From a virus, in the IMG/VR virus record IMGVR_UViG_3300037258_001189, positions 1 through 27,001 of that record: 27,001 nt of DNA; one strand, 5' to 3'. Of the stretch, positions 1,121 to 14,330 are shown piece after piece. How positions within the stretch are numbered: position 1 is the first letter of the stretch; each line of letters begins with the position of its first letter. The notes under the pieces were generated by a model. It saw nothing but the letters and a program-made list of their open reading frames with translations. It was not told where the DNA came from and did no database searches. Made by a program: the position numbers and the translations under genes.

Positions 1121-1381
1121 TCAAACAACCGGCGACTTCTCACGACTCCATACAGCAATTAACTCGTTTAATTCGTCCTGTAAGGTTCTCGCTGACTCGA
1201 TGTTTTTGAATGCCAGAATGCAATCTACCGCCGACTCATCAACCTGCTTCGGCCAATTGGCTGGCGTGCTGTTAATCGGCATCTCGGTCTCTTTGAGGGT
1301 TAGCGTCAAGCATTTCGTGCCATCGGCCAACACTGCCTGTTGAGTTTGAACTTTCCCGTCACCGTAAATTATTTTTTTCAT
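1121..1381 (-). CDS. Small hypothetical protein headed by the repeat promoter (86 aa)
   Basis: I do not recognise this 86-aa protein. It starts MKKIIYGDGKVQTQQAVLAD, looks like a small mixed alpha/beta soluble domain, and has no signal peptide or membrane segment. It stands alone between the portal gene (upstream, same strand) and the convergent integrase. Its ATG lies exactly 42 nt after the start of a TTATGGCTTAGTAC element and 8 nt after a GATAAT hexamer, so it is probably transcribed independently of the portal and perhaps as a leaderless mRNA. The position and private promoter fit an accessory (moron) gene or a lysogeny-associated gene. The coding call rests on the promoter arrangement and ordinary composition; function is unknown. 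Confidence 0.7.
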   Translation of the reverse strand: MKKIIYGDGKVQTQQAVLADGTKCLTLTLKETEMPINSTPANWPKQVDESAVDCILAFKNIESARTLQDELNELIAVWSREKSPVV

Positions 1382-1423
1382 ATCCCGCGATTATCCACAT
1401 TTCCGCCTGGTACTAAGCCATAA
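1379..1423 (-). promoter_or_regulatory. Repeat promoter element, copy A (leaderless start)
   Basis: Read on the minus strand: TTATGGCTTAGTAC (1423-1410), 14 nt, GATAAT (1395-1390), 8 nt, then the ATG of the 86-aa gene (1381-1379). The 18 nt CAGGTTATGGCTTAGTAC (1427-1410) are identical to copy B at 3951-3968. The element begins 12 nt after the portal stop codon. Spacing to the -10-like hexamer and to the ATG is the same, without gaps, as in copy D at 12512. I infer a promoter; no transcription start is known. Confidence 0.65.
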
Positions 1424-1434
1424 CCTGAAAGTAT

Positions 1435-3303
1435 TTAATCGCTGTGGCCGTTGCGACCGTCGCCTTGGAGCGCCAAAAGGTCGATCACCTGTCGCGCGAT
1501 GTAGCCCCGGCTTCGGCGCACGGGATTCGCCGTTTTCGTCTTTGCGGGCGGTTGCGCCGCGCCTTTTGCGTCGGGCGCGGGCGTCACCTGGCCCGGCTCG
1601 CCTTTATCAATTATCGGGCGGGTCACGTCCACGTCGCTATAATTCAACCCGTGTAATTCCTGCAATTCTTTCGCCTCGGCTTGCATCGCGTAAAGGTCAT
1701 CAAGATCTTCTCCATCAGGCAGATTGTCTTGAATCTGTTGCGGACAAGTAATCCCCGCCTCTTGCGCCAAGATCATCGCCTGCACGTCTTGCAGCGGATT
1801 GATGAACGGCCAGCGGACACCCTGCCAGCTCGCGGCATCGACAATTTCTTCCAGGCGCGAAATCGACACAGGAATAATGCCCGCCATGATGGAGCAGCGG
1901 AGCCATTCGCGGAAATGCGGCCGGACAACGATGTCGATAAAATGCTCCTGGATGAATTGGAAATTATCGCGTTGCGGCAATTCACTTGAGCGCGAGGCGG
2001 AAAAGCCGAGGTTCTGGAAATTGCCGGACAATGCCTGATAGGAAATGCCGAGGGCCACGGCCACGGCTTCTAGGTTGTCCTTCTTGAACCCCGTTGCCGC
2101 CTCAATGGGAAATTTGGGGTCAATCTGCTGAAGTTCCTGTCCCCATTCGGCTTCCCATGTCGATGCGGGCGAAACGACTTCGCTGCGAACGCCGATGCCC
2201 TGCTGGCGCATGGCGGCGCCGGTGTCCGGACCGGTGTTTCCAGCGTTCCCGGCCTGTTTGATTCGTTCCCAAAAAGATGCGAAATCCTGAGGGTCGGCAA
2301 AATTCATCCCGGTCGGGAAAAGCTTCTTAATCCAGAACGGCTTGCAACAAGACGCGATTGCCGCGAGGGCTAAAGCTGTCTCATATTGCCGGTCCCTGTG
2401 CATGTGTTGCATCGCGGCGTCCATTTCTGAAAAGCCGACATCAGCCTCCGCGCGGTCAGGGACATTGTTGTAATGGAGGATGTCTTTTGCCGGAACTTGC
2501 TCGCGCCAATTTTTCGGGGCGGCTTGTCCGCCGAAAGGATTTGTGCCGAAAACATCGCCGGGATGCCTGGTCAATAGCCAGTATGTCACCGGCGTGTTCC
2601 AGCGGTCATACTCGATGGAAAAACGAATCGCATTCCCGCTTTGGCTTTTGCCGCAATAGCTTTCCTGCAATCGGTCGGCTTCCAGAAGTTCAACGGCAAA
2701 CCCGTATTTGTTATTCGGATAGCCGCGGTGCATTCGCACAACGAGCGAGCCGTCGCGCCAGCCGGACATCGCGATGACGCCGAAAGCGACATTGCGCGAA
2801 ATGTTTTTGCGAACGGTGAAATTCTCAGGGCGCCCCGCGATTTTATATTCGTCCTGGATTATGTCGTTTAAGTCAGTTTCCGGTTTGAATTTGCCGGTGG
2901 CGTCCTTTTTGCCGACGCGCATTTTAAGGCGAAACCCGCGATGTCCGACGATGTTGTTGCGAATGACGCGCAGGGCAGCCTTGCCGTGCGGGGTGTCTTT
3001 GCAAACGGTGCGGGCGCGGGCGCGGGCCACGTATTGCGAGGAAAATATCTCGGAATTTGCGCTGCCGAATGTCCCCCGAAAATCCTGATTGAAATTGTTT
3101 GTGACAGCAGCGTCGAAACTGCGAATGAGCTTTTGATTCAGGCTGCGGATTTGGTTGCGGTCAAAAAAGTCATCGGACGTTTTACCGGAGCGCCAGCCGT
3201 TAAAGAGCGTGACGATGTTTCGCGCGATTTCAGGCGGGATTGACGAAGCGTCGCTTTTGGCGGGTTCCGGCTTTGAGCGGGAGAAGAATTCAAAAAACTT
3301 CAT
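1435..3303 (-). CDS. Phage portal protein, lambda GpB family
   Basis: This 622-aa protein would form the dodecameric portal at the packaging vertex, to which terminase docks and through which DNA passes. Length and layout fit the lambda-type GpB family (about 500-650 aa). An Arg-rich early segment (QYVARARARTVCKDTP) precedes the HGKAALRVIRNNIVGHRGF region typical of portals, and late segments such as INPLQDVQAMILAQEAGIT match the conserved family C-terminal part. The tail end is Pro/Lys/Arg-rich and probably disordered. I chose the start MKFFEFFSRSK at 3303, 1 nt after the upstream stop codon; an in-frame ATG at 3354 would overlap the upstream gene. It is the last structural gene on this strand: no prohead protease, decoration or capsid gene follows, which is unusual for the family. 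Confidence 0.93.
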   Translation of the reverse strand: MKFFEFFSRSKPEPAKSDASSIPPEIARNIVTLFNGWRSGKTSDDFFDRNQIRSLNQKLIRSFDAAVTNNFNQDFRGTFGSANSEIFSSQYVARARARTVCKDTPHGKAALRVIRNNIVGHRGFRLKMRVGKKDATGKFKPETDLNDIIQDEYKIAGRPENFTVRKNISRNVAFGVIAMSGWRDGSLVVRMHRGYPNNKYGFAVELLEADRLQESYCGKSQSGNAIRFSIEYDRWNTPVTYWLLTRHPGDVFGTNPFGGQAAPKNWREQVPAKDILHYNNVPDRAEADVGFSEMDAAMQHMHRDRQYETALALAAIASCCKPFWIKKLFPTGMNFADPQDFASFWERIKQAGNAGNTGPDTGAAMRQQGIGVRSEVVSPASTWEAEWGQELQQIDPKFPIEAATGFKKDNLEAVAVALGISYQALSGNFQNLGFSASRSSELPQRDNFQFIQEHFIDIVVRPHFREWLRCSIMAGIIPVSISRLEEIVDAASWQGVRWPFINPLQDVQAMILAQEAGITCPQQIQDNLPDGEDLDDLYAMQAEAKELQELHGLNYSDVDVTRPIIDKGEPGQVTPAPDAKGAAQPPAKTKTANPVRRSRGYIARQVIDLLALQGDGRNGHSD

Positions 3304-3304
3304 A

Positions 3305-3892
3305 TTAACAGATGGCGAATACGGGGCGGACAAGGCTCGGATCGGGGCGGCCATTCCGGGCGTCCTGGACTTTCTTCAAGTGATTATATTTTTCCTGCCA
3401 TGTGAAAAGCTGGTCAGACGCCTCTTTTTGTTTGATGCGCATGAGGCGGACGCCGGCGATGTCCGATTCATTGACGTAAGTGGCAGCGAGCTTCTGAACG
3501 GTGCATTCCCATGTGCGAACCATTTTCAATTCAAACGGCGTTTCGTCCGGGGCCGTCGCGCCTGAGGCGAGGTCAGGAGTGAGAACGAGGCGACCGCTAT
3601 AAATTTGATGACGTTCCGCCCCGCCGCCCGCGCCAGCCGGGTTCACCGCGTAACCCGCGAGGATGTAAGGGACGGTGGTGTCGAAAGTTTCCGCAAAGTT
3701 ATCAATTTCAACGAGGTGCAGATCGTTTTGAGGAACGGAACGGAATTCGACCACGGGAGCGCCCGTCAAAGTGAGAAGTTCGTATTGGAGATACCAACCG
3801 GATTCGGCTGGGTATTGCGGCAAATCCCGGATGAAATAAAGGCTGTCGCCCGCCGAGAATCGCTGAGGCTCGCTGGATTGAATTTCCGCCAT
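3305..3892 (-). CDS. Connector-position protein between terminase and portal (195 aa)
   Basis: The protein sits where lambda W lies, just upstream of the portal, and probably helps head completion or head-tail joining. The N-terminal half (about 10-115) looks like a beta-sandwich (AGDSLYFIRDLPQYPAESGW followed by alternating strands). The C-terminal part (about 150-195) has a basic helix with an R..RIKQKEAS...WQEKYNHL pattern. From memory this two-part layout occurs in roughly 170-200-aa proteins found between terminase and portal in lambda-packaging siphophages; it is not the 68-aa W fold. It is coupled to the portal by a 1-nt gap. The ATG at 3892 lies in the 3' arm of a short inverted repeat (GCCAT, 5-nt loop, ATGGC) that could mask it. 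A 2.9-kb antisense cassette separates it from the terminase. Role inferred from position. Confidence 0.8.
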   Translation of the reverse strand: MAEIQSSEPQRFSAGDSLYFIRDLPQYPAESGWYLQYELLTLTGAPVVEFRSVPQNDLHLVEIDNFAETFDTTVPYILAGYAVNPAGAGGGAERHQIYSGRLVLTPDLASGATAPDETPFELKMVRTWECTVQKLAATYVNESDIAGVRLMRIKQKEASDQLFTWQEKYNHLKKVQDARNGRPDPSLVRPVFAIC

Positions 3893-3923
3893 TTGAAATG
3901 GCGATGAGTCAAGCCAATTGACT
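3888..3923. repeat. Two short inverted repeats at the connector gene start
   Basis: The palindrome GCCATTT-G-AAATGGC (3888-3902) contains the start codon of the minus-strand connector gene. Just upstream of that gene, AGTCAA-gccaa-TTGACT (3907-3923) forms a second inverted repeat with 6-bp arms. Either could be an operator or a translational control hairpin for the connector and portal genes, or an operator for the divergent cassette promoter 30 nt away. Both are short enough to be partly chance. Confidence 0.35.
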
Positions 3924-3950
3924 TGCGGGAAGCCGGTTGAAAGAAATTTG

Positions 3951-3988
3951 CAGGTTATGGCTTAGTACGGCGGCAGGGCTGGTATAAA
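3951..3988 (+). promoter_or_regulatory. Repeat promoter element, copy B (methyltransferase cassette)
   Basis: CAGGTTATGGCTTAGTAC (3951-3968) is followed, 14 nt later, by TATAAA (3983-3988). The 18-nt word is identical to copy A, and the -10-like hexamer falls at exactly the same offset as in copies A and D. It faces the plus-strand methyltransferase cassette and lies in the 163-nt gap between the connector gene and the first cassette gene. A start near 3995 would give a leader of about 60 nt. Confidence 0.65.
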
Positions 3989-4055
3989 CGGCGGCATAGA
4001 TTGTGCGCAAAGTCACTCGAAACTTTCAAAATGGCCCCTGCCGTTACGCGTCGAA

Positions 4056-4268
4056 ATGAAGCTGGAAATTTTAGCTCAACTGTACGAATCCGAAACGAAG
4101 TGGAAAAACACCCGGGAAGTAATGGAGCGAACGATCATCCTGACTGGCGCATCAACGGACGCATCCTACGTCCTGGCGACAATTAGATTAGACGTGTCAA
4201 GACTCGATTTGTCCAAGTTGTGCGGCAACCCACCGAAATTCAAAGTTACCATCGAATCGATCGAATGA
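4056..4268 (+). CDS. Small hypothetical protein, first gene of methyltransferase cassette (70 aa)
   Basis: This is an unrecognised 70-aa protein beginning MKLEILAQLYESETKW. An N-terminal charged helix is followed by a beta-rich second half (YVLATIRLDVSRLDLS, KFKVTIESIE), suggesting a small folded domain. It is the first gene after promoter copy B and ends 43 nt before the methyltransferase start. No convincing Shine-Dalgarno precedes the ATG; the frame is open upstream to about 3987 without another ATG. A competing 61-aa reading frame overlaps at 4001-4186, but its composition is less protein-like. Real status is moderately likely; function unknown. Confidence 0.5.
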   Translation: MKLEILAQLYESETKWKNTREVMERTIILTGASTDASYVLATIRLDVSRLDLSKLCGNPPKFKVTIESIE

Positions 4269-4311
4269 ACCTGCGAATTCTCTACGTGACAGTAATTTCG
4301 CCAAAGGTTGC

Positions 4312-5931
4312 GTGACTTACGCATCGCTATTTTCCGGCGTAGGCGGATGGGATTACGGATTCGACCGTGCCGGATTCGCTTCGATTTGGGCATGTGAAAT
4401 TGATAAGCAATGCCAATCCGTCTTGCGGCGCCATTGGCCGAAAACGAAAATTTACGATGACGTTACCACTCTCAAGGCGAGCGAATTGGAATGCCCCGAC
4501 GTGTTGCTTTGTTCGCCGCCGTGCCAAGCATTCTCCGTCGCCGGTTTACGGCAATCGTTAAATGATGACCGTGGAAATCTCAGTCTCGTAACAGCGAATT
4601 TAATCAATGAACTCGACCCAAGACTTGTTTGTATTGAAAACGTCCCCGGATGGCTCTCCACAAAAGACAACGCCTTCGGATGTTTCCTTGCCGCATTGGT
4701 GGGAGCGGATGCCCCACTCGTTCCGCCAAAATCAGTCCGGCGATGGCGAACCGTCAAAGAATACCCCGATTGCGATGCAGACGGCGACCGATGCCAGCCA
4801 GACGCCGGTGGGAAGCGGCATTGCGGCGGACAGCATAGATGCGTCGAAGGGGAAGCGTTCAGTTGGACAGACGCGGGTATGGTTGCTGGCCCCAAGCGGC
4901 ACGCAGCTTGGCGCGTCCTCTCAAGTGAATTTTTCGGCCTGGCCCAATCTCGCTACCGTGTGTTCGTTGTCGCGGATACTGTTGGCGGATGTTGCGGACA
5001 AATATTATTTGAGCAGGATGGCGTGCGCAGGAATTTTGCGCCGAGCCGGGAAACGAGGGAAAACATTGCCCCGTGTCTTAGCAATCGCGCTAAAGGCGGT
5101 GGTGGATTCGGAACAGGCGCCGAATGTAGCGGCGCACTGATATCGGAAACGGCAAAGTCGTTATGTTGTGGCAACGGCCACGCTTTCAGTTCCGATAAAA
5201 CTTACGTGCCAGAAATCGCCTGTTCACTGAATGCGCAACGTGACGGTTGCAACGATGGGAGCGACCAAACGTATGTGCCGGAAGTTGCCAGAAAATTGGA
5301 TAGTGGAAGCGGTGGTTTCAATTCTCATTCTGAATTTATTCCAGAAATCGCCGCCTGCCTTCAGGAGCGCGATTCCAAAGGAAGCGATTCCAGCACAAAA
5401 CCGGGCCATCTGATACCAGAGCAAAATCAAGCTTATTCAGTGAGGCTCGCGCAAACATCGTCAAACGGCATCGGCGTTCAAGGGGAAAAAACACACACGC
5501 TCGACGGTGCAGCGCTGGGTGTAGCCTACCGCACTTCCGGCAACTGTGGCGCATTCGAGCAAGGCGACAAAACTTCCGCGCTGAACACTGCCACTGACCC
5601 AAATCAGAATGTCGTTTGCGAACCGACGGCATATCACCGCAACGCATCGTGCGCGGTCACTGAGCAAGAGGGCGGCGTTACCGCCGCCCTGAAATCCAAC
5701 GGGGAACATTCATATCAGTTCATCCATCAAAATTGGCGTGTGCGTCACCTCCATCCCGTTGAATGCGCCAGACTTTCAGGTTTTCCAGATTCATGGTGCA
5801 AAAGTGGTATTGACGCGAACGGCAAGGAATCAGAACTAAGCGATAGCTTCCAATATCGCGCTTACGGAAATTGTGTAAATGTCCCCGTGGCGCGTTGGAT
5901 TGCGGAACGAATCGCCAAACATTCAAAGTGA
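4312..5931 (+). CDS. DNA (cytosine-5-)-methyltransferase with repeat-bearing recognition domain
   Basis: The 539-aa enzyme would transfer a methyl group from S-adenosylmethionine to C5 of cytosine in DNA. Visible motifs are I (SLFSGVGGWDYGFDRAG, 5-21), IV (PPCQAFS, nucleophile C71), VI (ENVPG, 109-113), VIII (QSRYRVFVVA, 212-221), and near the C-terminus IX (HPVECARLSGFPDSW) and X (YRAYGNCVNVPVA). Residues about 255-480 form a long target-recognition region with degenerate repeats of a TYVPEIA..L type, as in multispecific phage enzymes. A Cys-rich insertion (about 145-187) lies between motifs VI and VIII. The start is GTG at 4312 (AAGG 7 nt upstream), just before motif I. No restriction enzyme gene is adjacent, so it is probably a solitary phage methylase for anti-restriction or regulation. 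The next gene overlaps its stop (TGATG). Confidence 0.95.
   Translation: MTYASLFSGVGGWDYGFDRAGFASIWACEIDKQCQSVLRRHWPKTKIYDDVTTLKASELECPDVLLCSPPCQAFSVAGLRQSLNDDRGNLSLVTANLINELDPRLVCIENVPGWLSTKDNAFGCFLAALVGADAPLVPPKSVRRWRTVKEYPDCDADGDRCQPDAGGKRHCGGQHRCVEGEAFSWTDAGMVAGPKRHAAWRVLSSEFFGLAQSRYRVFVVADTVGGCCGQILFEQDGVRRNFAPSRETRENIAPCLSNRAKGGGGFGTGAECSGALISETAKSLCCGNGHAFSSDKTYVPEIACSLNAQRDGCNDGSDQTYVPEVARKLDSGSGGFNSHSEFIPEIAACLQERDSKGSDSSTKPGHLIPEQNQAYSVRLAQTSSNGIGVQGEKTHTLDGAALGVAYRTSGNCGAFEQGDKTSALNTATDPNQNVVCEPTAYHRNASCAVTEQEGGVTAALKSNGEHSYQFIHQNWRVRHLHPVECARLSGFPDSWCKSGIDANGKESELSDSFQYRAYGNCVNVPVARWIAERIAKHSK
4607..5140 (+). CDS. Possible overlapping gene inside the methyltransferase (+1 frame, 177 aa)
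   Basis: A 177-aa reading frame begins with ATG at 4607 and lies wholly within the methyltransferase gene in another frame. Its C-terminal part reads CSLSRILLADV (119-129), YYLSRMACAGILRRA (133-147) and KRGKTLP (149-155). I recognise this as a motif common in phage-encoded proteins from methyltransferase loci (patterns like YxLSxxAcxGILRRAxxRGkxLP). At the same time the methyltransferase frame of this stretch (ILFEQDGVRRNFAPSRE, then NIAPCLSNRAKGGGGFGTG) also looks like conserved family sequence. Both frames therefore seem meaningful. The family memory is unverified, and the ORF could be a passive relic of codon bias; hence a low call. Confidence 0.4.
   Translation: MNSTQDLFVLKTSPDGSPQKTTPSDVSLPHWWERMPHSFRQNQSGDGEPSKNTPIAMQTATDASQTPVGSGIAADSIDASKGKRSVGQTRVWLLAPSGTQLGASSQVNFSAWPNLATVCSLSRILLADVADKYYLSRMACAGILRRAGKRGKTLPRVLAIALKAVVDSEQAPNVAAH
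5200..5420 (+). repeat. Degenerate in-frame repeats in methyltransferase recognition domain
   Basis: Three to four related units are translated as KTYVPEIACSLNAQ, QTYVPEVARKLDSG, SEFIPEIAACLQER and a weaker GHLIPEQNQ, at about 60-75-nt intervals. Such units in phage multispecific cytosine methyltransferases are thought to expand target specificity. The DNA units are diverged, so this is an old protein-level repeat rather than a recent duplication. Confidence 0.6.
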
Positions 5932-6131
5932 TGAACATTAACCACGCGAAACAGACGGTGTCGGTTGCGATCAAGAACGGTTGGATTTCATATCCGAAAG
6001 AGCCGGACAACCTCGGCGCTGGAACTGCGCGCGGCTATTCCAAGGAGGAAGCCCTGCTCGCCCGTCGCCGCGCGACACGCGAATGTATGCGTCGCGCTAG
6101 GGCTAAAGCGCGGCTGGCGAAGGCTGCATGA
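5931..6131 (+). CDS. Small basic helical protein, 66 aa
   Basis: This unrecognised 66-aa protein starts MNINHAKQTVSVAIKNGW. Its C-terminal half is a strongly basic, Ala/Arg-rich helix (EEALLARRRATRECMRRARAKARLAKAA), which suggests nucleic-acid binding. I chose the start at 5931 because its ATG overlaps the methyltransferase stop as TGATG, a typical coupled arrangement, and because its own stop overlaps the next gene (ATGA at 6128-6131). It may be a partner of the methyltransferase; this is inference from context only. Confidence 0.6.
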   Translation: MNINHAKQTVSVAIKNGWISYPKEPDNLGAGTARGYSKEEALLARRRATRECMRRARAKARLAKAA

Positions 6132-6331
6132 AATCTTCCCCTCACGTCGATATGCAGCCGATTCAAAATGGCATCGACATTTCATTGGAACAAGAGCGGG
6201 AAGTCTTGGGCGTGACGGCAATTCAACCGCCATACATCACCCGGTACGGCGAACCTGTTTGCGAGATTTGCAGGCGTCCATTGTCCGGTCACGGATGTTG
6301 CCGGGGACATTTTGAAGATATTTTCAACTAA
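6128..6331 (+). CDS. Small zinc-finger-like protein, 67 aa
   Basis: The 67-aa product begins MKSSPHVDMQPIQNG and carries the C-terminal cluster CEICRRPLSGHGCCRGH (about 45-61), whose Cys and His spacing fits a single small zinc-binding finger. It overlaps the preceding gene by 4 nt (ATGA) and is followed 3 nt later by the ASCH gene, so the four genes are one coupled operon. No known family was recognised; nucleic-acid or protein binding is plausible. Confidence 0.65.
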   Translation: MKSSPHVDMQPIQNGIDISLEQEREVLGVTAIQPPYITRYGEPVCEICRRPLSGHGCCRGHFEDIFN

Positions 6332-6334
6332 TCT

Positions 6335-6805
6335 ATGAAAGCTATTTCTCTCTGGCAACCTTGGGCCTCATTCATGGCAATTGATCTTAAGCGCAATGAA
6401 ACGCGCGGACGGCGCTGTCACATTCGCGGGGACATTGTTGTCTGTGCCGCAAAATCATGGCGACTTCCATCGCAGCGGGTTTGTGAGCTTATGTGGGATA
6501 AGATGGGGTTCGGATTCAATGACTTTGAGTATTTAGTCAGAAGCCTTCCGTATGGCAAAGCCATTTGCGCCGTCGAGTGTTACGACTGCGTTCCAACGGA
6601 AGATTTCCATCTCATTGGAGCTCCAGTGAAAATAAGCCAGCTTGAAGCTGATCTTGGAAACTACACCTGTGGCCGATTTGCGTGGCTCACCAGAAACCTT
6701 CGTCCATTCAAAGAACCATTCCCAGTGAGAGGGCGCCAAGGCTGGTTCGACATCCCGGATGAGATTGTGGCGAAAGCTCTACTTTTGGAATCAAGGTCCA
6801 TGTGA
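6335..6805 (+). CDS. ASCH (PUA-like) domain protein
   Basis: The 156-aa protein shows the ASCH pattern: MKAISLWQPWASFMAIDLKR, then an ETRGR segment, then RGDIVVCAAKSW (about 31-42), YGKAICAVECYDC (about 73-85), and a closing FKEPFPVRGRQGWFDIPDE. ASCH domains are PUA-like folds that bind RNA or modified nucleosides; some are amidohydrolases acting on N4-acetylcytidine. Encoded directly behind a cytosine methyltransferase, it may sense or process modified bases, but this is inference. It is the last gene of the antisense cassette, and its 3' end overlaps the 3' end of the minus-strand terminase gene by 15 nt. No clear terminator follows. Confidence 0.88.
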   Translation: MKAISLWQPWASFMAIDLKRNETRGRRCHIRGDIVVCAAKSWRLPSQRVCELMWDKMGFGFNDFEYLVRSLPYGKAICAVECYDCVPTEDFHLIGAPVKISQLEADLGNYTCGRFAWLTRNLRPFKEPFPVRGRQGWFDIPDEIVAKALLLESRSM

Positions 6806-8878
6806 AGGCGGCTGAGTAATCGCGAGATGTCCAAGCATCCCGTCGATAGCCTGCCTTACTAGCAACATGCATTTCAAATCGCGGTAATGGACATCTTTGC
6901 GGCCAGCGAGAGCTGAGTAATGGTCTTTGCCGTTCTTCAATGCGTAAAATTCATTTTGCATCTGCTGGTCAAACGTCGCGACTCCGCTTTCCATTTGCAG
7001 CGTCATTTCATCCAAACGCGAGCGGTCAAGGAATTCGAATTTCGGCATTCCCGGGGCGCCGCTCCGTATCGCATCCAATTGCATCTTAAACGCCACATTG
7101 CTCCACAGAATCTTTTTCAGGTGAACGACCTTGCGCGTGCCGTCCTTTTCGAAAACTGTCGCCATGACAGGCTGCGGCGGCGAATACGGCCGGTATTTTC
7201 CGTCGGCGTGCTTCCAACTGATGCGGTTTGAAGTTGGGTCGCCCGCGAGCAAAAGCCATGTCGCAACCTTTTCTCGGATGTTGAACGGCATCATGGGCTT
7301 TTCCAGCTTGACGATCTGCCGTTCCGCCGCGGCGCGCTGGATTATCAAGTCCGGCCAATGCCCGATGTCGATAACAACTCGATCATTCGGCACCTTCCAT
7401 TGTTGTTGAACGGCAATCCACGCTTCCCATGATTTGCAAAACCCGCGCGCAAGTTGCCGCGTGTTCCCCATCTTATCGACGGCATCGACCCAATACCAAA
7501 ACCAGCCGGTAATTGATTGCCCCGTGCGGTCGAAATGATCCTGGTCTTGCTGGCAATCGACTCCCATGTTCCGGCAATATTCATCCGGGATTTGCTCGAC
7601 AGGATCATAACTGCCGGGTGAAATTTCAATAACTGGTCGAATGGCCGCACTGCTCCATGTGCGGGCGCCCTTTTTTTGATGCCACTGTTTCAGCGGGTCG
7701 TAATTTCCCATCGATGCGGAGCGTTTGGCTTGCAGGTATTCGAGCATGATGCCGCCCCACGCGAGGCGCTGGCCGCACCATGCGGGCCACCAATGGCCGA
7801 TGTTTTCCGGGAGCGCGCTTGGGTTGGAAGCGACGTATGTCGATGAATGGTCAATCTTCCGGCGAGTTTCGGGAATGTCCCGCCATGCCCCGCTGCAATG
7901 GTAACACTCGTAATAGGTTTGACGCAGGATTTCACGGTCGTCGTAAGCGCCATCGTCGCGTTTCACGGAATCTCCGCGCTTCATGCCGGCGTGACGGCGA
8001 TCTTCCTTTTTGAGAATTGGCGTCCAGTGTTCAATCCACGCCTGGCGGTCAAGTGAGACAATATCCGTCGGGGGAGTCGCAATGAAATCGTCGGGGCGCG
8101 GTCGATGCCATTCAAATGGCTGAGAAGTTGCGCAGAGTGGACACGCGACATGTAAAATTCGCTGGTCCGTGGTTTTCCATTCCGAATCGAAATCGTCATC
8201 TTCCTCGCCGCCCTGGCTTTCGATAATCACCTTGTAATCGCGCAAGCCGGTGACGTTGTCGTGCGCGGTCTTTCGGGCAATCGCCTCCTTAAGAAGACCG
8301 GTGCGACCGGATAGAAAGGCGTCCGAAATTAGAACATAACGGAGCGTGATTCGTTGCGTTGAGCTTTTATTCAGCGGCCATATGCGCAGCGTCATTCCGG
8401 GCAAATAAAGTTCATCCGTCGTGATGTTGAAGCGTCCATCCGGGCCAGCGGCCAAAACATTGTCGATAATCCTCGCGACCGAGGAACTTGATCGGATGTA
8501 AGGCATGAGGCGGGTTTTCCCCTGGTCGAAAGCCGACTCGTCGCCGGGAAAATAAATCGCCATATCGCCCGGATCATTGGCGATGAAATAACCGGCGGGT
8601 TGCTCAATGGTGCCGTTGGTTTTCAGCGTTTGAACGGCGGCCATGTTGACAAATTTCCCGAATGGGCGGCGGCGAATCTCCCGCATCACCTCGGTCAAAT
8701 AGAAAGCCGTCTCGATGTTGAATGGGCGTCCCTCATTGGCGAAACCACGTTCCATAGGAACATCTTTAAAGAATTCCCAAATTTCACCTCGGAACGGAGG
8801 CGCGAGTTGGTCAGCGACCGCGCCGGCAATGTCCGCCATCGTAATTTGAGGCGGGATTTTAGCGTGACGGCGTTTCAT
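6791..8878 (-). CDS. Terminase large subunit, GpA family
   Basis: The 695-aa protein is the DNA-packaging motor and nuclease of the lambda GpA type. The order is: N-terminal ATPase (about 40-240), two Cys pairs forming a zinc site (C246/C249 and C325/C328), and a nuclease domain with MGVDCQQDQ (D442) and VVIDIGHWPD (D505). ATPase motifs are degenerate by eye: the family's QxGKT P-loop reads QTLKT (83-87) and the DEVD Walker B region reads ISDAF (184-188). I chose ATG 8878 because a good Shine-Dalgarno (GGAGG, 7 nt upstream) precedes it and the protein then begins MKRRHAKIPP. The start overlaps the small terminase by 20 nt. Its 3' end meets the ASCH gene tail to tail. Family assignment is secure. 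Confidence 0.93.
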   Translation of the reverse strand: MKRRHAKIPPQITMADIAGAVADQLAPPFRGEIWEFFKDVPMERGFANEGRPFNIETAFYLTEVMREIRRRPFGKFVNMAAVQTLKTNGTIEQPAGYFIANDPGDMAIYFPGDESAFDQGKTRLMPYIRSSSSVARIIDNVLAAGPDGRFNITTDELYLPGMTLRIWPLNKSSTQRITLRYVLISDAFLSGRTGLLKEAIARKTAHDNVTGLRDYKVIIESQGGEEDDDFDSEWKTTDQRILHVACPLCATSQPFEWHRPRPDDFIATPPTDIVSLDRQAWIEHWTPILKKEDRRHAGMKRGDSVKRDDGAYDDREILRQTYYECYHCSGAWRDIPETRRKIDHSSTYVASNPSALPENIGHWWPAWCGQRLAWGGIMLEYLQAKRSASMGNYDPLKQWHQKKGARTWSSAAIRPVIEISPGSYDPVEQIPDEYCRNMGVDCQQDQDHFDRTGQSITGWFWYWVDAVDKMGNTRQLARGFCKSWEAWIAVQQQWKVPNDRVVIDIGHWPDLIIQRAAAERQIVKLEKPMMPFNIREKVATWLLLAGDPTSNRISWKHADGKYRPYSPPQPVMATVFEKDGTRKVVHLKKILWSNVAFKMQLDAIRSGAPGMPKFEFLDRSRLDEMTLQMESGVATFDQQMQNEFYALKNGKDHYSALAGRKDVHYRDLKCMLLVRQAIDGMLGHLAITQPPSHGP

Positions 8879-9674
8879 AGGTTTCCTCCGCGGCTTTGCG
8901 CAACGCGGCGGCAAGGCTGGCGCGCAACGCATCTGCCGCATTTTGGCAGGCGGGTTGAATCACGGATGCAAGTACGGCCTTCTGGTCAGGCGACAAACCG
9001 GACGATTCGAAAACCTTCAACAAATCACCGGCGATGCCCCGCTCTACATATGCCGTCACATTCTGATTAAGGATTGTCCCGATGAAGCGAAGCGCGCGCA
9101 GGTGCTTTTCGACGGGCTGATAAGAGCCTTCAATTACCTGCCGATTGATGCGGGTGATGGCGGCGTTATCGACTTCCTCCTCGGCGCGTTTGCGGGCGGC
9201 CAACCGGAAAACGTCTTGCTCTGGAGCCTCGCCTGCGGACGCGATGACTGTGTGAGATGGCAAAATGTATTGCTCAATCCACCTGGCGATTTCCTTTGTG
9301 GGAAACCGATTATTGACCTTGGGCGGTGGTGGCGGCGTGCCATCGGACAATCCGCGCCCCTTACGCCAATGTCCAAGCTGTTGTTCTGAAATATCAATGG
9401 CGATGCGTCCGGCGAAATGTTTGGCGAGAATGGCCGCGAGCGAGGCTTGCGATTCGGCGTCAGGAAGTTCGCCGGTTTGTGGTGTGTCCTGTTTTGGCGG
9501 AATGATGATGCCCTTTGCAATGAGCTTTTCTTCCTGCCACTTGGCGGTTTCTCCGTTGCAATATTTGGCGTAAAGGACGCTTAGATTTTTGCGCTCGGCA
9601 TCCGAAAACGTTTCGAGGATTTTTTGAACGCGCTCGTAATCGTCCGGCGGTTCCACTGGCTCATTTTCCGGCAT
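8859..9674 (-). CDS. Terminase small subunit, Nu1-like (putative)
   Basis: The 271-aa protein probably binds the packaging site and loads the large subunit. The evidence is position directly upstream of GpA and a Nu1-like winged-helix segment (AIDISEQQLGHWRKGRGL, then a Pro-rich loop, VNNRFPTKEIARWIEQYIL), resembling the MerR-type wing of lambda Nu1. The remainder is helical, with a charged helix (LAARKRAEEEVDNAAITRIN) and an Ala-rich C-terminus, probably for oligomerisation. It is longer than Nu1 (181 aa). The start MPENEPVEPP at 9674 lies 1 nt after the upstream stop codon; an earlier in-frame ATG at 9776 would overlap the upstream gene by about 100 nt and add unlikely sequence. Confidence 0.72.
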   Translation of the reverse strand: MPENEPVEPPDDYERVQKILETFSDAERKNLSVLYAKYCNGETAKWQEEKLIAKGIIIPPKQDTPQTGELPDAESQASLAAILAKHFAGRIAIDISEQQLGHWRKGRGLSDGTPPPPPKVNNRFPTKEIARWIEQYILPSHTVIASAGEAPEQDVFRLAARKRAEEEVDNAAITRINRQVIEGSYQPVEKHLRALRFIGTILNQNVTAYVERGIAGDLLKVFESSGLSPDQKAVLASVIQPACQNAADALRASLAAALRKAAEETYETPSR

Positions 9675-9675
9675 T

Positions 9676-9900
9676 TCATTTGGGGATGAATGTGGTTTCG
9701 CCGATTTCACGGTGGATGATGAGCATTGGCAGTTTGCCGATAAAACCTGCGGCAAGGGCGAGACGGATATTTTCACGCGCCTGTTGCACTGTCGGTTCCA
9801 TCACGAATTGTTTTATGAGCGGAACGGTTCGAGGCGGCACCCGTTTCCGACTTCCATCTTCGCCATGCCAAAGTTCAACGGCGTAGAATTTACCGCTCAT
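9676..9900 (-). CDS. Small hypothetical protein, 74 aa (upstream of small terminase)
   Basis: Unrecognised 74-aa protein starting MSGKFYAVELWHGEDGSRKR. Beta strands at both ends (KFYAVELWHG, LPMLIIHREIGETTFIPK) flank a helix (VQQARENIRLALAAGF), suggesting a compact alpha/beta fold. It overlaps the upstream gene by 4 nt (ATGA) and is followed after 1 nt by the small terminase, so it is translated as part of the packaging operon. Function unknown. Confidence 0.75.
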   Translation of the reverse strand: MSGKFYAVELWHGEDGSRKRVPPRTVPLIKQFVMEPTVQQARENIRLALAAGFIGKLPMLIIHREIGETTFIPK

Positions 9901-10121
9901 TTGAGGTGGACGTTGCGGCCTATTTCATGGGGCTTCCACGTATCCCCGCAATTTTCAAGATAGAATTCACGAACGCCGTCGAATGTGCGGACGAAAAGTT
10001 TAGCAAGCTTTCCACTGCGCATTCTCAGTTTCATGCGGAAACCTTTGAACTGCGGCGCGTCAATTGGCTTTATTTCCCTAAGGCCGTAAACGACTGCCAT
10101 GCCGGTAAGCTTTCCGTTCAT
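9897..10121 (-). CDS. Small hypothetical protein, 74 aa, basic
   Basis: Unrecognised 74-aa protein starting MNGKLTGMAVVYGLREIKPI. It is basic and beta-rich (FRMKLRMRSGKLAKLFVRTFDGVREFYLENCGD), like a small barrel or nucleic-acid-binding fold. Its start and stop both overlap neighbours as ATGA, showing tight coupling in the packaging operon. No family was recognised. Confidence 0.75.
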   Translation of the reverse strand: MNGKLTGMAVVYGLREIKPIDAPQFKGFRMKLRMRSGKLAKLFVRTFDGVREFYLENCGDTWKPHEIGRNVHLK

Positions 10122-10741
10122 GCGTCAATCAATGTTTTCAATTGTTGGCGAACTTCATCGACCCAATCGGTCTTGCGAAAGAGATCCCGCAATTGTTCCG
10201 GGTCCCGCTCTTGCAACGGTTTTTCCCGCACGCATTTTAAGAAGTCCTGTTTGAATCGCGTGACATGCGCGATAAAAATGGTGAGTGTGTCTTGTGGTCG
10301 ATCCGCCGCGCCGTCGCCAAGCAAGCCGCGCTCGCTAACGGTCAATAATTCCAATTGCTGCAAAAGGTTCCGGCGAGCGTCGGGCGCGATGTCATCCCAC
10401 TTCGTCACTTTGGTTGGGAATGCGGCAGCAATGGCGATGCGCCGTTTGGCGATGGCAAAGGCTTCTCGTGAATCATCACCCCACGGCAATTTGTCCTGGA
10501 TGCACCGGGTGGATTCACCGTTGAAAAAATCGAAAGTGATTTGTTCGCGCCCGCAAATGCTTTGGAGTGCCTTGCCTTGGGCGATGAATAAATTAACGAT
10601 GTCCAAAACGCATCCCTGCAAATCGCCGCGGAGGGATTTTATTTTATCCTCGGCTTTGCAAATGGAGGCGATGTGGGATTCGACGGCTTTGCGTTTTTGG
10701 CGCGCAGCGGCGTCCTCGTAGGTTTCAACGGATTTGCTCAT
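10118..10741 (-). CDS. Hypothetical helical protein, 207 aa
   Basis: Unrecognised 207-aa protein starting MSKSVETYEDAAARQKRKAV. It is mostly helical, with a long basic N-terminal helix (about 5-45), a middle segment ITFDFFNGESTRCIQDKLPWG (about 68-88) and an amphipathic C-terminus (DPEQLRDLFRKTDWVDEVRQQL). There is no signal peptide, membrane segment or clear enzyme motif. It is the largest unknown of the operon and overlaps the genes on both sides by 4 nt (ATGA). Position upstream of terminase suggests an early or late accessory role, but nothing in the sequence decides it. Confidence 0.8.
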   Translation of the reverse strand: MSKSVETYEDAAARQKRKAVESHIASICKAEDKIKSLRGDLQGCVLDIVNLFIAQGKALQSICGREQITFDFFNGESTRCIQDKLPWGDDSREAFAIAKRRIAIAAAFPTKVTKWDDIAPDARRNLLQQLELLTVSERGLLGDGAADRPQDTLTIFIAHVTRFKQDFLKCVREKPLQERDPEQLRDLFRKTDWVDEVRQQLKTLIDA

Positions 10742-10962
10742 ACATGTGGCGTTCTGATTGGCGTTTTACCCAAAATAAATTCAGGCGTGGAAATATATTT
10801 ATACTGAAGCGATTTCCCGTTAAAATTCCGCGTCGGGCGCGGCGGGGTTCCATTCGCGCGGCTAGAGTCAGCCTGCCAGACCCGGCGACATTCATCGCAG
10901 TGCAAGCGATTCGTTTTCGCCCGCTCGCCGCATGTCACGCACAGTTGGACTTCCGCGCTCAT
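10738..10962 (-). CDS. Small zinc-ribbon protein, 74 aa
   Basis: The 74-aa product has CVTC (8-11) and CDEC (22-25), a Cys2-Cys2 zinc ribbon with 10 residues between pairs, followed by a basic Arg/Asn-rich tail. Phage zinc ribbons of this type often bind nucleic acid or act as small regulators. Its ATG overlaps the stop of the upstream HTH gene (ATGA), and its stop overlaps the next start in the same way. The zinc site is plain; the role is not known. Confidence 0.78.
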   Translation of the reverse strand: MSAEVQLCVTCGERAKTNRLHCDECRRVWQADSSRANGTPPRPTRNFNGKSLQYKYISTPEFILGKTPIRTPHV

Positions 10963-11504
10963 GTCGTCCTCTGCTTTTCCTGTTGACGGCGGATGTCCGC
11001 GAATCCTGCGCGGGTTTGTTCATCGCGCTGGCCGGGTGCTGCGGGAAGGACCTTCAATCCGTCCGGCAACGAATCACGGAACATGCAATAGAATTTGTCC
11101 GTGTTCGCCTTTGTCATTCCGAGGCGCCGGGCAAGTTCTGTGGGAGTCGAAACGCCGTCGAGTAAATGATGCCAGCGAAGGGCGAGTAGAAGGCAGCGAA
11201 GCAAATGACCCTGTTGACGCCATGTCCGGGCGGAAATCACGATACCCACGCCATCGCGGAACATCCGCATGAAATCCGTGCTGGCGGTTTCGGCCTGGAA
11301 ACGACCGGCCAGATGTTCCTCTACGTCCTCAATTATCTCGGCGGCGCGTTCGACGGGGAGATCATATCGGGCGGACATTTCATCAAGGAAAGTGCCTTCG
11401 TCTTGATGCGAGACGGCGTGGAAAGAGTCGGGTGGGGTTTCCACCGAATCCATCATAGGGCGACCGTTATGTCGGGTCATCGGGGATATTACCTGCATAC
11501 TCAT
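10959..11504 (-). CDS. HTH-containing protein, first gene of packaging operon
   Basis: A helix-turn-helix-like segment lies near the C-terminus (STPTELARRLGMTKANTDKF, followed by YCMFRDSLPDG), after an acidic helical region (DLPVERAAEIIEDVEEHL). It probably binds DNA and may regulate the operon or the divergent tail promoter. The start is uncertain: the frame is open to an ATG at 11558 (199 aa), with further ATGs at 11504, 11498, 11456 and 11453, none with a strong Shine-Dalgarno. I favour a start at or below 11504, because the sequence upstream carries inverted repeats typical of an intergenic control region. It heads a chain of genes joined by ATGA overlaps. The family was not identified. 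Confidence 0.75.
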   Translation of the reverse strand: MSMQVISPMTRHNGRPMMDSVETPPDSFHAVSHQDEGTFLDEMSARYDLPVERAAEIIEDVEEHLAGRFQAETASTDFMRMFRDGVGIVISARTWRQQGHLLRCLLLALRWHHLLDGVSTPTELARRLGMTKANTDKFYCMFRDSLPDGLKVLPAAPGQRDEQTRAGFADIRRQQEKQRTT

Positions 11505-11514
11505 CAGGGACTTG

Positions 11515-11640
11515 CAACCTAAAAGTGAGACATAATGACTCTTGTCAATTATGGGCATTTTGTCACATAGGTGTCTTTTAGGCTCTAATCGTATAATTTA
11601 CTGTGCTACTTTATGACTCTCAGTAGTTACACGCGACTCA
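11515..11640. promoter_or_regulatory. Divergent control region between packaging and tail operons
   Basis: This stretch separates the two divergent late operons. Visible elements are CCTAAAAG at 11518-11525 and its inverse CTTTTAGG at 11575-11582, an imperfect palindrome CATAATGAC..GTCaATTATG (11531-11553), and repeated GACTC words at 11537, 11615 and 11635. TATAAT at 11592-11597 faces the plus strand, and TTGACA on the minus strand lies at 11546-11541. No -10/-35 pair has good spacing on either strand, so the actual promoters may need an activator. The whole is a good candidate for joint late-gene control. Confidence 0.5.
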
Positions 11641-11666
11641 AAAGATTTTGACTGCCATCTATTTGC

Positions 11667-12509
11667 ATGACGCGCATTGTCGGTGTCGATACGACCGGGT
11701 TGAATCAGGCGATTGCCATTTCTCAGCAATATTCTGAACGCACCCCGCAAGTAATGGTTGCCACGGCTGGTTTTTATATCGCCCGCAAAACGACCCGCGA
11801 CGCCAAGCGCGCTTCAATGGGCAAAATGGATTCCGACCTGGGTGCCGATTCCACAGTGGTTCTCTCGACACGCGGGAAGCGGAAGGGTTTGCCGTTGAAA
11901 TCTGGCCGGAGAAAGGTTGCGCTTACGGCAAATACGCCGTCCGGCCAATCTCTCGCCCAGCGAATTATTCTTGCTCGCATGTGGCCCGGAACCAAATACA
12001 ACACGTCCACAAACCAGCGATTTGCCATTGACCGAATGGCGTTGTCGCCTGGCGAAGGCAAAGCCGCTTTTTGGTGGAAAGTATTGGCCGCCGCAAAATT
12101 GATGGTCAAAGCACGGCATTCGTCCATTGCCTTCCTCGCCGCTTCCTCGCGGGCTGTTGTGAAGGCGCTGGAACCTTACGTGGATGTCCGATACCGGCGC
12201 GGGGCGGTCCCGCCCGATCCTGAAGTGGAACGCGCGGCGCAAAGCTCACTCACGTCCAAAGGCTCGGCGACAGTGACACAATCCGGCTATTCCGCGACGA
12301 TGGCCGGGAACTTGAACATTGGGCTTGGGCCACCGTCAGTTTTGGATGAGCGCCACAATGAGGCAATGCAGGCTTGGATGACGCCGGCGTTGCAGGGCGC
12401 GATTTACGACGAAACGATGAAACAGGCGACTTACTCGGCTGGCAAAGGTGAATTGGAGCGGCGCAAGGCGCAATTCGCCCCGACAGGGACGGCGATTTCG
12501 CCGTCGTAA
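11667..12509 (+). CDS. Tail completion/minor tail protein, lambda Z-like (putative)
   Basis: The 280-aa protein opens the tail operon. Its N-terminal part (VGVDTTGLNQAIAISQQYSE, then TPQVMVATAGFYIARKTTRD) resembles lambda Z/HK97 gp10-like tail-completion proteins: a helix followed by a basic segment. Order supports this: next come a U-position gene, a tube candidate, a chaperone candidate and the tape measure, matching lambda Z-U-V-G/T-H. No Shine-Dalgarno is visible before the ATG. The gene is followed immediately by repeat promoter copy D and the RNA-ligase cassette, which separates it from its usual partner. Function assigned mainly from position. Confidence 0.6.
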   Translation: MTRIVGVDTTGLNQAIAISQQYSERTPQVMVATAGFYIARKTTRDAKRASMGKMDSDLGADSTVVLSTRGKRKGLPLKSGRRKVALTANTPSGQSLAQRIILARMWPGTKYNTSTNQRFAIDRMALSPGEGKAAFWWKVLAAAKLMVKARHSSIAFLAASSRAVVKALEPYVDVRYRRGAVPPDPEVERAAQSSLTSKGSATVTQSGYSATMAGNLNIGLGPPSVLDERHNEAMQAWMTPALQGAIYDETMKQATYSAGKGELERRKAQFAPTGTAISPS

Positions 12510-12511
12510 GA

Positions 12512-12556
12512 TTATGGCTTAGTACGGTGGCAATCCGTGGATAATCGGGAGCCATG
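12512..12556 (+). promoter_or_regulatory. Repeat promoter element, copy D (leaderless start)
   Basis: TTATGGCTTAGTAC (12512-12525), 14 nt, GATAAT (12540-12545), 8 nt, then the RNA-ligase ATG (12554-12556). Copy A aligns without gaps over the whole 45 nt, including GTGGATAATCG and the ATG. It begins 2 nt after the stop of the preceding tail gene. Inferred promoter giving an RNA that starts at or within a few bases of the ATG. Confidence 0.68.
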
Positions 12557-13510
12557 ATTAATTCGTATCCCTCAATTTACAATCTTGGCCATTCCGCAAT
12601 TTCCGATTTGCTAAAAGGCTCGGTGATCGTTGAGGAAAAAATCGATGGCTCTCAATTCGGCTTTGGATTGGACGCAGAGGGACACATTCAATGCCGCTCC
12701 AAAGGCGCACAGATCAACATACTCGCGCCGGAAGGGATGTTTGCCGAGGCGGTGAAAACCGTTGAAGAACTCGCGCCACTTCTCCGACCCGGTGTTGTGT
12801 TTCGCGGAGAATACCTCAAATCGCCAAAGCATAACGCCCTATGCTATTCGCGCATCCCTGCCAAACATATCATTCTGTTTGACATTACCACGGGGCTGGA
12901 AACCTACATGACGCCAGAAGAAAAGCAGGCAATCGCTTCATATTTGGGACTCGAATGTGTCCCTGAACTGTTTCGCGGAATCGTTGAGGATGCGAATCAT
13001 TTCAGAACGTTGCTTGACCGCGAATCTTGCCTTGGCGGTCAAAAGATCGAGGGCGTCGTCATCAAGCCGTTGAATTACGATCAATTCGGTAAAGATAAAA
13101 AGTGCCTGATGGGGAAATTCGTTTCGGAAGCGTTCCGCGAGGTTCACTGGGCCGCGTGGGATGCAGAGCATAAAACGAAGTCCAGCAACGACATTATCGA
13201 AATCCTCGCTGCCAAATTCGGCACAAACGCGCGATGGAACAAGGCGCTTATCCATCTCAAGGAAGCTGGAAGTATCGAAAATACCCCGCGCGACATTGGC
13301 TTGCTGATGAAGGAAGTGCCAGAGGATATTTTTAAGGAATGCGCGACGATGATCGCCGATGACCTGATGGATTGGGCGTGGCCGCAATTGCGCCGTCGCG
13401 TCACGCGCGGAGTTCCAGAATGGTATAAGGAGGAACTCCAAAAACGCCAATTTGAGACGCCAGAAAAAATAAATGAAACTCTTGGCTTAGTACCGGCCGG
13501 GACTGTGTAA
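12554..13510 (+). CDS. RNA ligase, Rnl2-like nucleotidyltransferase
   Basis: The 318-aa protein would seal nicked RNA through a ligase-adenylate intermediate. Nucleotidyltransferase motifs are visible: I EEKIDGSQ (27-34, nucleophile K29), an RSKG element (48-51), III FRGEYL (83-88), IIIa ILFDI (107-111), IV EGVVIKPL (166-173) and V LMGKFVSEAF (185-194). The C-terminal region (about 200-318) is helical. The motif set and size match the T4 Rnl2-like RNA ligase family rather than DNA ligases. No polynucleotide kinase/phosphatase or tRNA gene lies nearby. It is a single-gene cassette with its own promoter inside the tail operon, bounded by direct copies of the repeat element (12512 and 13480). 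It may repair tRNAs cut by host anticodon nucleases; that role is inference. Confidence 0.88.
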   Translation: MINSYPSIYNLGHSAISDLLKGSVIVEEKIDGSQFGFGLDAEGHIQCRSKGAQINILAPEGMFAEAVKTVEELAPLLRPGVVFRGEYLKSPKHNALCYSRIPAKHIILFDITTGLETYMTPEEKQAIASYLGLECVPELFRGIVEDANHFRTLLDRESCLGGQKIEGVVIKPLNYDQFGKDKKCLMGKFVSEAFREVHWAAWDAEHKTKSSNDIIEILAAKFGTNARWNKALIHLKEAGSIENTPRDIGLLMKEVPEDIFKECATMIADDLMDWAWPQLRRRVTRGVPEWYKEELQKRQFETPEKINETLGLVPAGTV

Positions 13511-13513
13511 ATA
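13480..13513 (+). promoter_or_regulatory. Repeat promoter element, copy C (overlaps RNA-ligase 3' end)
   Basis: GGCTTAGTAC (13484-13493) is followed, 14 nt later, by TAAATA (13508-13513), the same spacing as in the other three copies, although the first four bases (TCTT) differ from TTAT. The element overlaps the last codons and stop of the ligase gene. A start near 13520 would enter a terminator-like hairpin at 13534-13574 at once. It could feed the two small genes that follow, or a short RNA. Confidence 0.5.
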
Positions 13514-13533
13514 TCGAAATCGTTGTTTGGGGG

Positions 13534-13580
13534 CGCGCCGTTCGGTTTCTTCGCAAAAAGTTCCGGGCGGCGCGTTTTTC
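13534..13580 (+). terminator. Rho-independent terminator-like hairpin after RNA ligase
   Basis: Arms CGCGCCGTTCGG (13534-13545) and CCGGGCGGCGCG (13563-13574) pair over 12 bp with two G-U wobbles; the loop is 17 nt, and TTTTTC follows directly. It probably ends ligase-cassette transcription. Because copy C lies just upstream, it may also act as an attenuator or define a short RNA. A weak promoter-like pair TTAACA/GTTAAT with 17-nt spacing follows at 13581-13609. Confidence 0.65.
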
Positions 13581-13635
13581 TTAACACAAACCGAATGAAC
13601 AGAGTTAATGCTAGTTTGACTGAAAGCTGATTTCG

Positions 13636-14031
13636 ATGGGACACAATGAAATGAAACGAATGCTCTATTTCGGATGCCTTGTGAAAAAAGGGCATTACCT
13701 GTGGGCGACGGAGAGTTGCCATATTGCCAATCGTAGCGCACTCAAATCCGTGAGTGCAATTGATGACGTTACTGATGAGTTTTTGATCTCTTTGGACGGG
13801 GCTTTTACTCCGCTGATAAGCGCACAGGGGGCTTACAAGGAATCATTGGTGCCTCCTTTCCGAATAATCGCTTGGCACGATTATACAGTGGATTCCAGGC
13901 CGGGAAGTAATTCTGCGCTCCTTGGCATTGGCTACGAATCAACTGACGAAATGTTGGACGATGCCATTAACCATTTTCCATCAGTAATGAAACGCCAAAC
14001 ATCACCTCTTTACCTCGCTATGCGATTGTGA
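13636..14031 (+). CDS. Hypothetical protein, 131 aa (second accessory cassette)
   Basis: Unrecognised 131-aa soluble protein starting MGHNEMKRMLYFGCLVKKGH; an alternative start lies at MKRMLYF (13651). It looks like a globular alpha/beta protein (RIIAWHDYTVDS, ALLGIGYESTDEMLDDAINH). It follows the terminator hairpin by about 55 nt and overlaps the next gene by 4 nt (GTGA), so the two form a pair. They are not part of the usual tail order and are probably accessory genes inserted with the ligase. Function unknown. Confidence 0.65.
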   Translation: MGHNEMKRMLYFGCLVKKGHYLWATESCHIANRSALKSVSAIDDVTDEFLISLDGAFTPLISAQGAYKESLVPPFRIIAWHDYTVDSRPGSNSALLGIGYESTDEMLDDAINHFPSVMKRQTSPLYLAMRL

Positions 14032-14330
14032 GCGAGAATTATAAACATGCTGAAATAGTCGGGCCGTTTGTCGAGCCACAATGGCATTACGCCGTCGTGG
14101 ATGGTTATAAGGTGCCTTACATCAAGCTTCTGCCGCTGAAAGGGGAAAATGACGGCAAGATAGAAGTTCATATCGAAGATTCAGATTGTTGTTTTATAAT
14201 TGACGATGCGAGCATTGATGTCGTGCTAAGCCTTCTCGCTAAAGCGATGGCCGTCGCTGCCGGTTACAATAAGCACGGAGAAGGTTCGCAAATCCACAAT
14301 CCGTTTAAGGTTCAGATGTCAGCCATTTGA
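14028..14330 (+). CDS. Hypothetical protein, 100 aa (GTG start)
   Basis: Unrecognised 100-aa protein read from GTG at 14028 (MSENYKHAEIVGPFVEPQWH). A beta-rich middle (KVPYIKLLPLKG, KIEVHIEDSDCCFIIDD) is followed by a helix (VVLSLLAKAMAVAAGY). The start is chosen because GTGA overlaps the previous stop, which implies coupling. It ends 1 nt before the U-like tail gene. Probably an accessory protein; no family recognised. Confidence 0.65.
   Translation: MSENYKHAEIVGPFVEPQWHYAVVDGYKVPYIKLLPLKGENDGKIEVHIEDSDCCFIIDDASIDVVLSLLAKAMAVAAGYNKHGEGSQIHNPFKVQMSAI

Follow-up and report, generated by a model that had tools for sequence, protein, structure and literature searches.

A repeated promoter-like element ahead of accessory genes in a phage with a probable Verrucomicrobiota host

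Four exact copies of a 10-mer, GGCTTAGTAC, were found in the IMG/VR virus record IMGVR_UViG_3300037258_001189, an incomplete record of 27,001 bases that was analyzed in its entirety and is referred to below as the window. The copies, together with a -10-like hexamer that starts 14 nucleotides (nt) after each of them, were designated elements A, B, C and D (Table 1). The element is probably a phage-specific promoter family for accessory (moron-like) genes, with a non-canonical box at the -35 place, and this family is best read as a variant form of the elements known from morons or of start-associated elements. We infer promoter function, from the anatomy of the copies, and likewise where transcription starts and what reads the box. 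A first-pass annotation had described the four copies and their hexamers, the extension of three copies to TTATGGCTTAGTAC and an 18-nt identity between two of them, and an exact search of the window confirmed all of these.

With one mismatch permitted, the box gave five matches in the window compared to 0.27 expected from shuffles. A four-copy 10-mer is not rare by itself, since 11 were present in the window and simulations gave a mean of 4.1. However, TTATGGCTTAGTAC was the sole 14-mer with three copies in the window (elements A, B, and D), and none of 200 order-2 Markov simulations produced a three-copy 14-mer. Elements A and B share the 18 nt CAGGTTATGGCTTAGTAC. The hexamers are GATAAT in A and D, TATAAA in B and TAAATA in C, the last being weak (3/6 matches to TATAAT). 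Mean pairwise identity was 100% for the box, 61% for the hexamer, 39% for the 14-nt spacer and around 30% for the outer flanks. Judged from the alignment, this profile is one of two seemingly constrained boxes around a free spacer, for which recent duplication alone would not be enough. An all-against-all comparison of upstream regions in the window placed the pairs among A, B, and D at the top (scores 17.5, 14.5, and 13.0), and these alone were clearly above the maximum of 11.5 obtained with shuffled sequences. Noncoding DNA makes up only 792 bases (2.9%) of the window, yet it contains three of the four boxes; the fourth lies in the final codons of the ligase gene. In agreement with the first-pass annotation, no copy was found ahead of a structural operon, and an A/T-rich tract was read directly upstream of A, B, and C.

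The ATG following elements A and D starts exactly 8 nt past GATAAT, so that the distance from box to ATG is identical in both, a point absent from the earlier description. No Shine-Dalgarno sequence was found ahead of either gene. Transcription usually starts shortly downstream of the -10 hexamer, and if it starts at the usual distance here, the mRNAs of A and D would be leaderless or nearly so. If it starts at the ATG itself, the box is located at about -38 to -29 and TTATGGCTTAGTAC at about -42 to -29. The box would then occupy the expected place of a -35 element, yet it is unlike one, and a sigma-70 promoter scan for a TTGACA-like -35 at 16–18 nt from the -10 listed none of the four elements.

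The window encodes a tyrosine integrase, a lambda-type portal, a GpA-type terminase (TerL), a head-tail joining protein (HTJ) and tail genes, and further a C5 cytosine methyltransferase and an Rnl2-like RNA ligase. The best match of TerL to a named phage was Verrucomicrobia phage P8625 (21%), and a terminase relative at 29% was found inside a Verrucomicrobia genome; based on these two matches, the host is probably a member of Verrucomicrobiota.

Comparison with related phages showed that the elements sit where the structural gene order is broken, in agreement with the claim that they accompany cassettes inserted among structural genes. TerL, HTJ, and portal are contiguous in four relatives (L005, L059, L063, and L064), and L062 contains a smaller unrelated insert between TerL and HTJ. 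In the window, TerL and HTJ are 2.9 kb apart, with the methyltransferase unit between them on the opposite strand. The gap between g280 and g191 is 24–25 bp in L062 and L063 compared to 1.8 kb here, where the ligase unit lies in it together with two small genes. Elements B, D, and C are located at or within these two inserts. At the third junction, the portal is followed by a protease-capsid gene after around 20 bp in L057, L060, and L063 and after around 490 bp in L062. This gene had no match anywhere in the window, and its place is taken by element A, a gene of 86 amino acids (aa) and the integrase; the capsid gene is missing, not merely displaced. The G+C content of the units was 0.455–0.526 compared to 0.536–0.582 in the rest of the window. 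The comparison shows accessory units inserted into a conserved structural order at two of the three junctions. The ligase unit has the layout of a moron, with promoter-like element, gene and terminator, whereas a simple scan found no terminator downstream of the 86-aa gene or of the methyltransferase unit. Regarding the own promoter typical of morons, the elements are promoter-like in sequence and lack a canonical -35.

Table 1. Location of the four elements and of adjoining features in the window.
Feature	Positions	Strand	Details
86-aa gene	1121..1381	-	Behind element A; no family match; occupies protease-capsid place of four relatives
Element A	1379..1430	-	Box 1419-1410; TTATGGCTTAGTAC 1423-1410; spacer 1409-1396; GATAAT 1395-1390; 8 nt; ATG 1381
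Element B	3948..4002	+	Box 3959-3968; TTATGGCTTAGTAC 3955-3968; spacer 3969-3982; TATAAA 3983-3988 after TGG
Accessory unit of B	4056..6805	+	70-aa gene; C5 cytosine methyltransferase 4312-5931; 66-aa gene; 67-aa gene; ASCH-like gene 6335-6805
Element D	12509..12553	+	Box 12516-12525; TTATGGCTTAGTAC 12512-12525; spacer 12526-12539; GATAAT 12540-12545; 8 nt; ligase ATG 12554
Rnl2-like RNA ligase gene	12554..13510	+	318 aa
Element C	13477..13513	+	Box 13484-13493; spacer 13494-13507; TAAATA 13508-13513; overlaps ligase 3′ end
Intrinsic terminator, strong	13529..13580	+	Long G+C stem followed by TTTTT; between element C and 131-aa gene
131-aa (g131) and 100-aa genes	13636..14330	+	G+C 0.455; second half of g280-g191 insert

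Element D starts at the stop codon of g280. The hexamer of element B is the best of the four (TGGTATAAA), and the first convincing gene downstream of it is the 70-aa gene starting at 4056; the ASCH-like protein at the end of this unit was named from a sequence motif and has no Pfam match. Element C has diverged in its 5′ part, with TCTTGG where the others have TTATGG. Because the strong terminator (-35.3 kcal/mol for the fold of 13500–13600, z -2.84) lies between C and g131, it is doubtful, and on this layout unlikely, that C serves as promoter for g131 and the other small gene. The claim that each copy lies just upstream of non-structural genes was upheld for A, B, and D and is doubtful for C, and the generalization to every accessory cassette is wider than these results. 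The promoter-like form as such was borne out by the invariant box, the variable spacer, the -10 hexamer, the A/T-rich tract of three copies and the fixed distance from hexamer to ATG in A and D. The ligase was observed to be about 17 codons longer than a 64% identical ligase from another phage (L051), the extension (13457–13510) corresponding to element C plus the flank upstream of it.

The first-pass annotation had proposed a search of related phages for the element, and this search was negative at every level. A strict search of IMG/VR gave no matches, with the limit that very near records may be left out of it. The element was found neither in the terminase and portal relatives L005, L040–L045, and L057–L064 nor in any of 35 phage contigs with related ligases. 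A loose motif gave 33 matches in IMG/VR, which were put down to chance, as they have in common neither the extended box nor the spacing of 8 nt between hexamer and ATG. Upstream of the L051 ligase, AGATTATGG was found together with GATAAG 8 nt ahead of the ATG. The alignment of this region with that of element D scored only slightly above shuffles (78 of 5000; rank about 8 of 877), and upstream of the ligase of L075 and other relatives nothing comparable was seen. A ligase promoter inherited together with the ligase is suggestive only, given this alignment. No ligase was found in 289 Verrucomicrobiota genomes, a search that was uninformative.

In the phage carrying the L051 ligase, the ATG of an ASCH-like gene and that of the ligase are each closely preceded by a TTGAC word and a potential -10 (L054, 1286–1330 and 9326–9366), as if both genes had near-leaderless promoters of their own, to judge from these words. 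In L054–L056 (IMGVR_UViG_3300036900_000119), this 58.7-kb phage with its related ligase and ASCH-like gene, AACGCTGTCCC-type words were seen in repeated runs, in more than 20 copies.

On the preferred reading, a promoter family of the phage, accessory genes would have been inserted at junctions of the structural gene order and would be run from a shared element. The -10 hexamer would bind host RNA polymerase, and the invariant TTATGGCTTAGTAC would replace the -35, its reader being an activator made by the phage or a special sigma factor, possibly of an unsampled host. For the 86-aa gene behind A and the RNA ligase behind D, the transcript would begin at the ATG or a few bases from it and would be leaderless or nearly so. 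In B, the mRNA would start around 60–70 nt ahead of the 70-aa/methyltransferase unit, and C would be a partly decayed copy reading straight into the ligase terminator. A dedicated regulator or sigma factor would have indirect support only, from the lack of a canonical -35 and from 388 Verrucomicrobiota genomes in which the element is not in excess (see next paragraph). A more specific version, in which TTATGGCTTAGTAC is recognized by a phage-encoded activator or sigma-like factor that turns on the accessory units only, as one leaderless regulon apart from the structural genes with their TTGACY signal (described below), is put forward as a tentative possibility. Several observations speak against a promoter family. 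The record is an incomplete 27-kb fragment, and the box was found in no other record, cross-phage conservation being the strongest test. Without a canonical -35 the element is not a standard sigma-70 promoter, and no candidate for a regulator of the box was identified. Element B has no ATG at +9, and ATAG stands at the position of the ATG of D. Element C lies within coding sequence ahead of a terminator, and its weak hexamer includes the ligase stop codon.

The same features were weighed for other explanations. That the box and its flanks are an operator, bound by a phage repressor or silencer over ordinary promoters, is unlikely. For accessory genes, silencing would be plausible, half-sites similar to GRTTAT-N26-ATAATC and spaced by about three helical turns were read directly at A and D, and a GTATC word lies between -35 and -10 in the three P8625 promoters; however, dyad symmetry is lacking in the invariant box, half-sites flank it only imperfectly at B and not at all at C, and without a normal -35 there is no evident promoter to repress. 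A promoter class of an unsampled bacterial host, read by a host sigma factor with nothing made by the phage, would account for hexamers that resemble ordinary -10 elements. We regard it as rather improbable, as the 388 sampled Verrucomicrobiota genomes contained four matches (with at most two mismatches) compared to eight for a reversed control pattern, and the 33 loose viral matches lacked the features named above. As a promoter class of Verrucomicrobiota themselves, the element was rejected on the same count.

The first-pass annotation had also suggested that the shared sequence is the homology by which cassettes are gained and exchanged. The units would then come from one donor or have recombined at a repeated word, leaving the element as a passive join. 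All copies lie at synteny breaks, the direct copies D and C flank the ligase, A and B have 18 nt in common, and repeats flanking insertions and deletions are known in Cluster O mycobacteriophages (PMC4351075). Nevertheless, a spacer down to 39% identity beside an identical box is not expected of a passive relic, no common tract exceeds 18 nt, D and C are alike almost only in the box, and the element is missing from all 35 phage contigs with related ligases; the idea is thus weak, and there is little likelihood that it explains the copies. A cis-acting RNA in the 5′ leader, of the riboswitch or translation type and conserved as RNA, seems very improbable. A and D are located directly upstream of an ATG and D alone folds well (z -2.22), whereas the other three copies folded no better than shuffles (z -0.05, 0.86, and -0.48) into differing structures, and the spacing is promoter-like. 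No Rfam match was found in the window at the gathering threshold, and a structured RNA was rejected for want of both an Rfam family and a fold common to the copies.

A separate start-proximal signal, TTGAC(T/C) or TTGACY, was observed in the window 13–16 nt ahead of the ATG of many structural genes (HTJ, g280, g131b, g131c, g90, g161, and g1139) and of the accessory g131, where TTGACT lies 14 nt ahead of the start. Its positions are 3912 (minus strand), 11648, 13616, 14904, 15412, 15828, 16071, and 23585, and the genes headed by A and D are without it. In relatives it was found in L063 (110, 3835, 6125, 10203, and 11024), L062, L059 (4644), L060 (1669), and L064 (1296), and it occurs at orthologous places, ahead of HTJ in the window, L059, L063, and L064 and ahead of the capsid gene in L060, L061, L062, and L063. 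Shine-Dalgarno sequences were nearly absent in the window phage and these relatives. In 20 sampled Verrucomicrobiota genomes TTGACY preceded 1 of 291 genes, and a 16S rRNA tail complementary to TTGACT was absent in 115 genomes. From its placement, TTGACY may be a non-canonical translation signal or a short-leader signal of this phage group, and this finding may be of more interest than the promoter-like element.

Two irregularities of gene order were seen. At 1–1435 and 11559–11666 of the window, the protease-capsid gene is missing and the block from portal to g199 is reversed relative to g280 onward, which may reflect a rearranged genome, an incomplete record or an assembly join. In L041, the N- and C-terminal parts of the terminase are located on opposite strands (89–865, plus, and 1748–2959, minus) with other open reading frames between them, due either to an inversion within the gene or to misassembly.

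The common view is that phages acquire accessory genes singly, each with its own promoter. If the promoter family is real, such genes can join a common regulon during or after acquisition, and a shared promoter sequence would be a handle for finding them. The arrangement of the copies suggests that this phage may run its optional genes from a dedicated switch of its own. It also offers a candidate promoter type, open to testing, in a phylum of bacteria whose phages are almost unstudied with regard to gene expression.

Compared to known systems, the units resemble the morons of the HK97/HK022 type (Juhala 2000, cited in PMC7067206). Common to both are extra genes between genes that are neighbors in relatives, a deviating base composition and a promoter-like element; the ligase unit also has a terminator, and the B unit is antisense to the surrounding structural genes. 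The difference from those morons is that a single promoter-like sequence, non-canonical in its -35 box, is common to the units of this phage. By distribution, the nearest described phenomenon is the start-associated sequences (SAS) and extended SAS (ESAS) of Cluster K mycobacteriophages. The SAS is a Shine-Dalgarno-like sequence of 13 bp (GGGATAGGAGCCC-like), present in many copies 3–7 bp from the start (PMC3203893). Both are short, non-palindromic, phage-specific repeats, mostly in one orientation to the genes, near start codons and at non-structural genes only. However, the box described here has another sequence, is separated from the start by 28 nt, has a -10 hexamer after it and occurs in four copies, and on sequence and position the element does not belong to SAS/ESAS.

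In the middle promoters of T4, a MotA box (consensus WWWTGCTTtA) lies 12 ± 1 bp from the -10 (PMC2988021), and as in our element a phage box takes the place of the -35 and a sigma-70-type -10 is retained. The sequence TTATGGCTTA agrees with 8 of 10 MotA-box consensus positions at a distance of 18 nt from the -10, and because of this difference in spacing we speak of a likeness and not of membership. MotA and AsiA had no matches in a Pfam scan of the proteins of the window, the genome being incomplete. Cluster O mycobacteriophages have predicted leaderless promoters, one of them serving a gene that is reversed within the structural operon, and also more than 30 copies of 17-bp palindromic repeats associated with insertions and deletions (PMC4351075); there, promoters and repeats are separate things. 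In the genome of P8625 (L125), TTGACA-N17-TATTGG/TATCTG-N7-ATG occurs in three copies (5412, 10736, and 15558) ahead of gp08, gp15, and gp22, with the GTATC word common to their spacers, and to judge from this pattern the copies are apparently a leaderless repeated promoter family. A search of the P8625 genome paper (PMC4642752) found no mention of promoters. These promoters differ from the element in their canonical TTGACA -35, 17-nt spacer, sequence and genes. What the two have in common is several near-identical promoters in one phage of Verrucomicrobia, with the start codon of P8625 7 nt past the -10, and the P8625 set shows that phages of this phylum do have repeated promoters with a start codon 7–8 nt past the -10.

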